IMG/VR virus record: IMGVR_UViG_3300007542_000226
Coordinates: 1-21,685 of that record
From: a virus
Reading direction: 5' to 3' (one strand)
DNA: 21,685 nt
Part shown: piece by piece, positions 19,160-20,188 of the stretch
How positions within the stretch are numbered: the first letter of the stretch is position 1
Layout of the letters: the number at the start of each line of letters is the position of its first letter
Translations under genes and position numbers: made by a program
The notes under the pieces: generated by a model
Told to the model about the DNA's origin: nothing
Database searches by the model: none
What the model saw: only the letters and a program-made list of their open reading frames with translations

Positions 19160-20188
19160 TCAGCCTCCATATGCTTGGATTATTTCTGCCGCTACTTGAG
19201 GGACGATCGCGTTTCCGTAGGCGCGCAGGCGTCCCACTCGGCCGGGTAGCCCATGAGCCAGCGGGAATGCGCCGGGTTCAACCGGCCGCCACTTTCCATC
19301 CGTGCACAAGAGCCAGTCAGAATCTCGCCAGAAGCCGTGAAGCGCGCCGGCGAAGGGTTCGCAGCCAGCGCCACGTCCGCGTTCAGATCCGCGCACCCGT
19401 GTTTCGTGCCGTGTTTCGGTTTCTGCCCTTGACCGCGCGCCCGCGTGTCGTGCGCCTGTGGTATTGTCCATGCTGCTAACTGTGCGAAGTCCCGCAGATC
19501 GTTCGCGTGTGGTCCCATCGCCCGAGCCTTCGCTTTCTGCGGGTCGCTGTATTCCCCGCCCGCGTTGATCTTCGCCGTTGGCGTCGGCCATGCGGCCAAT
19601 TGCGCCGTCCCCGGCAATTTCAATACCGGCTTGCTGTGGTCGCCCCGGCTGTAGGCGTATTGACTGCCCGTCGAATCGTTCACAACTGGACTCGGCCACG
19701 AACCAAGCGCGTTGCCGTTGGTGCGGCGCGCCGACACCGCCAGCCGGCAGATCGACTGGCCCGAAGGCGTAACCGATTCCTTCCAGGTCAGATTGAACAA
19801 GGTCGATCCACAGCCGCGCAGCGCCGTTCGCAACCTGCTCGCCAAAGACGACCGGAGGGCGGCGCTGCTGGATGAGCCAGTGCCAGGCGGGCCATAGGTG
19901 CCGCTCGTCGTCAAATCCAACTTGTCTGCCTGCCGTGCTGAAAGGCTGGCATGGGCATGATCCGGTCCAGACGGGGCGGTCGTCAGGCCATCCGGCAAGC
20001 CGGAGCGCGCGGGACCATCCGCCGATCCCGGCGAAGAAATGGCATTGATCGAATCCATCAAGTTCATCTGGTCTGACATCCCGAATATCCCTTTCGTCCA
20101 CTTCACCGGGGGCGATTTCTCCCGCCCGGATCAGGTTGCGCAGCCACTCTGCGCAGAAGGCGTCAATCTCGTTGTAGTAGGCTGGCAT
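19160..20188 (-). CDS. DNA (cytosine-5-)methyltransferase
   Basis: This 342-residue enzyme transfers a methyl group from S-adenosylmethionine to cytosine C5. Motif I is HFFAGIGGWSRALRLAGW (about residues 50-67). Motif IV is TGSCPCQPFSTAGRQVGF with catalytic Cys80. Motif VI is VVFGEQVANG (Glu117). Motif VIII is GAPHQRQRAWFVA, and motifs IX-X are in GRLRAYGNAIVPQVAAEIIQ. The stretch between about 168 and 280 is low in hydrophobic residues and should include the target-recognition region. An N-terminal extension (YYNEIDAFCAEWLRNLI) is shared with a common phage/prophage subgroup. No cognate restriction enzyme is visible, so self-protection against host restriction is the likely role. A second gene is nested inside it. 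The ATG is preceded by GAGAGG. Confidence 0.92.
   Translation of the reverse strand: MPAYYNEIDAFCAEWLRNLIRAGEIAPGEVDERDIRDVRPDELDGFDQCHFFAGIGGWSRALRLAGWPDDRPVWTGSCPCQPFSTAGRQVGFDDERHLWPAWHWLIQQRRPPVVFGEQVANGAARLWIDLVQSDLEGIGYAFGPVDLPAGGVGAPHQRQRAWFVAESSCERFDGQSIRLQPGRPQQAGIEIAGDGAIGRMADANGEDQRGRGIQRPAESEGSGDGTTRERSAGLRTVSSMDNTTGARHAGARSRAETETRHETRVRGSERGRGAGCEPFAGALHGFWRDSDWLLCTDGKWRPVEPGAFPLAHGLPGRVGRLRAYGNAIVPQVAAEIIQAYGG
19192..20079 (-). CDS. Nested overlapping gene: phage protein family with WPTP-type repeats, inside the methyltransferase gene
   Basis: The +1 frame relative to the methyltransferase is open for 295 residues from ATG 20079 (a GTG at 20106 would add nine). It is not random. 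It carries the blocks of a phage/prophage protein family I recognise as usually free-standing: SSPGSADGPARSGLPDGLTT, LSARQA, STLFNLTWKESVTPSGQSIC, and ARRTNGN followed by LGSWPSPVVND. Then it repeats AQLAAWPTPTAKINAGG and AQLAAWTIPQAHD. The end is GRLNPAHSRWLMGYPAEWDA followed by CAPTETRSS. AAAGGG lies nine bases before the ATG. The family is sometimes labelled methyltransferase in databases but lacks C5 motifs here. Function unknown. Translation in both frames is inferred from conserved family features in each. Confidence 0.7.
   Translation of the reverse strand: MSDQMNLMDSINAISSPGSADGPARSGLPDGLTTAPSGPDHAHASLSARQADKLDLTTSGTYGPPGTGSSSSAALRSSLASRLRTALRGCGSTLFNLTWKESVTPSGQSICRLAVSARRTNGNALGSWPSPVVNDSTGSQYAYSRGDHSKPVLKLPGTAQLAAWPTPTAKINAGGEYSDPQKAKARAMGPHANDLRDFAQLAAWTIPQAHDTRARGQGQKPKHGTKHGCADLNADVALAANPSPARFTASGEILTGSCARMESGGRLNPAHSRWLMGYPAEWDACAPTETRSSLK

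Follow-up and report, generated by a model that had tools for sequence, protein, structure and literature searches.

Lee, Kam and Shaw reportedly described in 1995 that the small gene of the C5 DNA methyltransferase M.EcoHK31I is nested in the large one, in another reading frame. M.EcoHK31I and M.AquI each consist of two polypeptides; in M.EcoHK31I, motif IX alone is located in the smaller polypeptide and the predicted target-recognition domain (TRD) is in the larger (PMC3404938). Here we examine a phage locus in the IMG/VR virus record IMGVR_UViG_3300007542_000226, whose 21,685 bases are referred to as the window. A gene for the putative large subunit of a C5 DNA methyltransferase (alpha; 342 amino acids, positions 19160–20188) contains a second open reading frame (ORF) in the +1 frame (beta; 295 amino acids from its ATG, positions 19192–20079). 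Both ORFs, like all features of the window located below, are on the minus strand. The beta ORF lies entirely within the alpha gene, where the initial annotation had placed it, and its first base is the second base of an alpha codon. Our results suggest, with a probability of about 0.87, that a single C5 DNA methyltransferase is encoded here in two parts, a catalytic alpha chain and a nested beta chain carrying the TRD and motif IX.

The alpha chain has the PF00145 motifs I (HFFAGIGGW, 20015–20041), IV, with the PCQ of the catalytic cysteine (SCPCQPFS, 19937–19960; from the sequence and the Pfam alignment), VI (FGEQVA, 19829–19846), VIII (GAPHQRQR, 19709–19732) and X (RAYGNAIVPQVAAEII, 19178–19225; aligned to motif X of the single-chain enzyme P0008), but motif IX and a TRD are not in this chain. 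It matches Pfam DNA_methylase at 4.6e-13 over residues 74–165 only, phrog_363 at 2.7e-81 and M.HhaI at 1.4e-8, and beta matches phrog_1008 at 5.8e-34. The initial annotation had assigned motif IX to the methyltransferase frame together with the other five motifs; these five are present, but it is the nested frame that carries motif IX. The C-terminal block of beta, LNPAHSRWLMGYPAEW, corresponds to motif IX of C5-methyltransferases (GRLNPAHSRWLMGYPAEWD, 19231–19287; from the motif pattern and an alignment to single-chain methyltransferases). Its M.HhaI counterpart is LHPRECARVMGYPDSY, and the M.HhaI motif IX segment RKLHPRECARVMGYPDSYK was checked against PDB sequences. With one motif IX pattern used throughout, which matches M.HhaI too, the motif was found in none of 251 alpha frames and in 243 of the 251 +1 frames; motif X was found in 235 of the alpha frames and 5 of the +1 frames. 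For loci collected by the distant motif version WVEW, the +1 match is by construction, but absence of the motif from alpha (0/72) is not. Motifs IX and X are in one frame in 20 of 20 single-chain relatives.

These relatives indicate where the nested protein would fit. In actinobacteriophages they carry motifs I to VIII, PTP-type modules, RLAAAFPEWMMGWPAGW and motif X in one frame, and the single-chain methyltransferase of JKSyngboy has motifs IX and X in frame. A profile of the nested frame gave a collinear alignment to the single-chain VIII-to-X segment (E value of 5.8e-8); the profile of a distant nested subfamily matched the same segment at 1.3e-9, and the two nested profiles matched each other at 2.9e-28. 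Alpha aligns to the complementary single-chain parts, IV–VIII and X, and a single-chain member, when modelled, resembles M.HhaI in structure (E value of 9.2e-14). As motif IX is confined to beta and beta is homologous to the VIII-to-X segment, the pair is best read as a split methyltransferase. A partnership with the methyltransferase, one of the roles first proposed for the nested frame, is thus supported by the motif IX and the TRD homology in beta.

Several observations weigh against this interpretation. An AlphaFold model of beta alone was poor (predicted local distance difference test score [pLDDT] of 61.9), Foldseek searches with this weak model returned nothing significant and a Pfam scan of beta, including 118 beta proteins, yielded only noise. 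The module region of the single-chain model is also of low confidence. The exact start of beta is uncertain because its residues 1–43 are without constraint, and the TRD homologue is located in the nested small subunit as tandem modules, unlike in M.EcoHK31I. It might be asked whether beta is a separate protein, such as a restriction inhibitor, a nuclease or another partner, that merely resembles motif IX. Two points favour this: no counterpart of the long beta core (residues 44–127) was seen in the single-chain alignments, and in one locus (L329, described below) the beta ORF persists although the alpha frame is degenerate. However, beta is collinear with the VIII-to-X segment, alpha is complementary in lacking motif IX, and beta has no PADLOC or Pfam family match, so that the restriction inhibitor suggested earlier finds no support. 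We consider a separate protein highly improbable.

The nested ORF is a real coding sequence under purifying selection, with an omega of about 0.3–0.65 compared with about 1 outside the overlap. We collected 64 IMG/VR loci via the methyltransferase frame alone and 65 via the nested frame; the nested match was in the identical +1 register in all 129. In the methyltransferase-ascertained set, the +1 frame had 0.36 stops per gene versus 2.66 after synonymous shuffling (some residual stops may fall past the natural end of the nested ORF) and was open in 79% of genes versus 9% of shuffles. At four-fold alpha sites in the same set, two homologues agreed in the third base in 0.42 of comparisons ahead of the overlap, in 0.69 midway through it and in 0.75 towards its end. 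This conservation climbs from alpha codon 81, at about nested residue 44, with no rise over residues 1–43 (19951–20079), where four-fold sites score 0.33–0.47, the same as outside the overlap. Over the conserved beta core (ASLSARQA...GSTLFNLTWK...RTNG, 19699–19950) they mostly score 0.5–0.84; this core is predicted to form a helix (residues 69–89) and a hairpin (95–117), with a pLDDT of about 80–89.

We then considered substitutions by their effect on both proteins, using 42 independent close pairs of 80–98.5% identity (N, changing; S, silent; alpha given first, beta second). The omega of the nested frame (NN/NS) was 1.15 before the overlap (95% confidence interval [CI], 0.93–1.43), 0.51 in the core (0.40–0.64), 0.65 in the modules (0.51–0.79) and 0.48 at motif IX (0.36–0.61). 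The omega of alpha (NN/SN) in the module region was near neutral at 0.96 (0.85–1.06). Within this region, substitutions silent in beta and changing alpha were 1.47 times (95% CI, 1.23–1.80) as frequent as the reverse (NS/SN); hence beta is under stronger constraint there than alpha. The initial annotation had suggested a dual constraint on the variable region, which is correct except that the nested frame bears the larger share, and its view of two constrained proteins agrees with the selection seen in both frames. A single codon illustrates the constraint: alpha codon 312 specifies His, Asp, Asn or Tyr in 239 of 251 homologues and is written CAT, GAT, AAT or TAT, never xAC among the codons listed, because the T is needed for Met276 of beta (the Met of WLMG).

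These data bear on the simplest alternative, that the +1 frame is a shadow ORF, open merely from the amino-acid and codon constraints of alpha and without a functional protein. The nested frame does nearly always accompany a methyltransferase, and nested residues 1–43 show no constraint, both of which a shadow would explain. Stop counts and open-frame rates are, however, far beyond those of synonymous shuffles, synonymous sites of alpha are constrained and the omega of beta is below 1; in addition, the +1 frame carries a motif IX that alpha lacks, and 56% of module differences are at beta wobble positions. The shuffles and the codon-position data refute this explanation, to which we assign next to no chance. 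The suggestion of a purely translational by-product is likewise unsupported. The initial annotation had expected the homologues of a shadow to be confined to methyltransferase genes, which they are apart from truncated contigs and L329, but also to show frequent stops and no purifying selection, which they do not.

The region of stronger beta constraint contains the WPTP repeats. In the window these form module 1 (WPSPVVND...LAA, 19591–19698), which has modules up to 83% identical in 14 other loci; module 2 (WPTPTAKINAGG...LAA, 19471–19590), with modules 85–90% identical in L001 and L221; and module 3 (WTIPQAHD...), which together with the linker to motif IX covers 19288–19470 and was delimited by profile alignment to single-chain methyltransferases. 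By sequence comparison, the WPTP repeats are homologous to the VIII-to-X segment of the single-chain enzymes, that is, to their presumed target-recognition region. From the nested ORFs we cut 684 WPTP-type modules, mostly two to four per ORF (range, 0 to 7). Recurrent clusters common to several loci, 38 in number, contained 511 of the 684, including window modules 1 and 2; as the cutting pattern was loose, a few clusters are core pieces rather than modules. Module pairs picked by nucleotide identity alone, and hence without preference for either frame, showed an identity of 79% in the beta frame and of 55% in the alpha frame; first positions of alpha codons, which are the wobble positions of beta, accounted for 56% of the differences. 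The recognition cassettes are therefore primarily beta coding. Each module type may read a different DNA sequence because the TRD sits between motifs VIII and IX.

The same results address a second form of the split enzyme, in which the TRD is in the variable region of alpha and beta supplies motif IX only. This is the published assignment for M.EcoHK31I (PMC3404938). Against it, the variable region of alpha is near neutral where beta is constrained, the module pairs are more alike in beta, and the single-chain TRD segment is matched by the WPTP region and not by the alpha frame. We regard a TRD in alpha as unlikely.

Beta appears to have its own start. A nested-frame ATG is located ahead of alpha motif IV in 245 of 251 homologues, most commonly at alpha codon 37 or 41, and in the window it is preceded by a Shine-Dalgarno-like stretch (GAAAGGGATATTCGGG, 20080–20102). 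AGGAG, GGAGG or AAGGA is present upstream of the nested start in 30% of homologues versus 5% of synonymous shuffles, and the codon for alpha Arg33 is AGG in 31% of homologues versus 7% elsewhere. An alternative without a separate beta protein would be a single chain made by frameshifting: ribosomes would leave frame 0 for the +1 frame ahead of the recognition region and return to frame 0 after motif IX but ahead of motif X. The order I to VIII (frame 0), TRD to IX (+1) and X (0) is indeed collinear with the single-chain relatives. Such a chain would require two opposite shifts, though, and would have no need of the beta core over motifs IV–VIII, which is constrained, or of the conserved start region and Shine-Dalgarno signal of beta. 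We judge frameshifting to be very unlikely.

Near the nested start, at 20055–20079, the window also encodes QMNLM, which resembles a weak beta-clamp motif. A sliding-clamp-like motif of the QL[TS]LF type adjoins the nested start in 26% of WVEW-type loci versus 0.8% of synonymous shuffles, and in about 12% of the window's own subfamily versus 0.4% of shuffles (examples are L310, L337, L346, L351, L372, L422 [Lc-Nu], L425 [Dash] and L134 [Honeybear]). As only 12% of its members have the motif, a universal clamp-binding motif in the window's subfamily was rejected. The single-chain enzyme of Gordonia phage JKSyngboy (L423, P0005) has a clamp-like QLNLF between motifs IX and X, a position unlike that in the split enzymes.

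The nested arrangement is old and widespread in phages, contrary to the first impression that long overprinting of this kind is rare. A tblastn search detected the nested frame in 196 phage records (E value of ≤1e-5), and scans with a profile of this frame recovered 190 relatives from GTDB genomes and, from IMG/VR, at least 594. At 301 loci, all nested-ORF matches overlapped a methyltransferase ORF, and the +1 register was the same throughout. An independent search by DNA pattern, directed at the distant motif version (WVEWLMGFP), yielded 81 matches at 80 loci; of these matches, 74 were nested +1 in C5-methyltransferases (with PCQDIS, PCQPFS and others), 5 were at contig ends and 2 were exceptions. 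One of these (L329:911–1955) is a second tandem copy adjoining an intact alpha-beta pair; its alpha frame lacks the N-terminal motifs I to IV and X, and its nested ORF is open, with 322 amino acids and approximately six modules. In the other (L330:1972–3601), a frame disruption, either natural or an assembly error, fuses the nested frame to the motif X end of alpha. Further nested cases include N15 gp58, epsilon15, K1G, Lactobacillus phage Lc-Nu, Paenibacillus phages and Vibrio ZQ26.

The initial annotation had described the nested family as mainly free-standing in phages. We found no free-standing homologues in IMG/VR, GTDB genomes, INPHARED or PLSDB; 52 loci that seemed to stand alone under a PCQ.FS-only pattern proved to be nested once PCQDIS-type versions of motif IV were admitted. 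Annotators pick alpha, beta or both, as in K1G (L131), Honeybear (L134), PIN1 (L133), JC01 (L137) and KY006853 (L135), and the seemingly stand-alone entries of Klebsiella phage PIN1 and Cronobacter phage JC01 are loci where one of the two frames was called. The impression of a free-standing family is therefore explained by one-frame annotation. In PHROGs, the two frames are separate families, all named DNA methyltransferase. An annotation as "Mte8-like protein" gave no lead to the identity of beta.

In a tree of the alpha core, the single-chain clade (L426–L458) lies beside or inside the split enzymes, with a support of 99. With Dcm and M.HhaI as the outgroup, the tree requires two changes between the single-chain and split states and is compatible with either direction; re-fusion of a split enzyme into a single chain is thus possible.

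In the split enzyme as we envisage it, frame 0 would be translated into alpha, which forms the catalytic domain and has motifs I, IV, VI, VIII and X. Translation of the +1 frame, initiated at a separate ATG that lies 109 bases within the alpha gene, would yield beta with the WPTP modules and motif IX. Alpha would bind S-adenosylmethionine and flip and methylate the cytosine, the small domain responsible for reading the DNA sequence would come from beta, and activity would be present only in the alpha-beta complex. We infer that beta is translated, that a heterodimer forms and is active and that multiple modules confer multiple specificities. It is also conceivable, though we hold this more tentatively, that the locus represents a large and old phage class in which TRDs are exchangeable overlapping-frame cassettes (up to seven), a swap of which re-targets the enzyme, and in which the clamp motif of many members couples methylation to replication.

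If the split reading is correct, a puzzling overprinted ORF becomes the missing half of an enzyme, and it becomes clear why phage databases contain, for one locus, two "DNA methyltransferase" families that look unrelated (phrog_363 and phrog_1008/31772). Cloning or annotating one frame, as is the usual practice, would likely give an inactive protein, and the specificity of these phage methyltransferases may have to be read from the nested frame. The locus would also offer a natural dual-coding system of considerable depth: homologues number in the hundreds, the trade-off between the frames can be measured and enzyme activity provides a read-out. The novelty lies in the breadth of the arrangement, in the exchangeable recognition modules that the nested frame carries in tandem and in the greater constraint there on beta than on alpha. 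No paper describing this breadth was found in the open literature, which is weak evidence of novelty as subscription papers were mostly outside the search.

A hidden coding frame in a phage methyltransferase gene has a precedent. The ShiLan report (PMC11855218) describes a mobile insertion in phage methylases that encodes a hidden HNH homing endonuclease; the likeness to our locus is the concealment of a second coding frame in such a gene. We rejected an element of this type because beta has no HNH family match and the overlap, instead of being limited to an insertion, takes up most of the methyltransferase gene. The single-chain enzymes Wachhund gp69 and JKSyngboy gp4 carry a motif IX of the EWMMGWPAGW type, located between motifs VIII and X, and PTP-type modules are common to Wachhund and its relatives. 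Unlike in the window, however, all their motifs are in one frame and one chain, and their other frames lack motif IX. M.AquI shares the natural split of catalytic and recognition parts but has motifs IX and X together in its small subunit; here, alpha retains motif X (235/251) and one gene lies completely within the other. The closest resemblance is to M.EcoHK31I (YGGCCR), which, by its published description, likewise has motifs I to VIII and X in the large polypeptide and motif IX in the small one. Unlike M.EcoHK31I, the gene here is a phage gene, from a tailed phage whose minus strand bears terminase, portal, major head protein and helicase genes, and there is no evident restriction partner nearby. 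The window pair most likely belongs to, or works like, the M.EcoHK31I kind, with recognition placed in the nested subunit.
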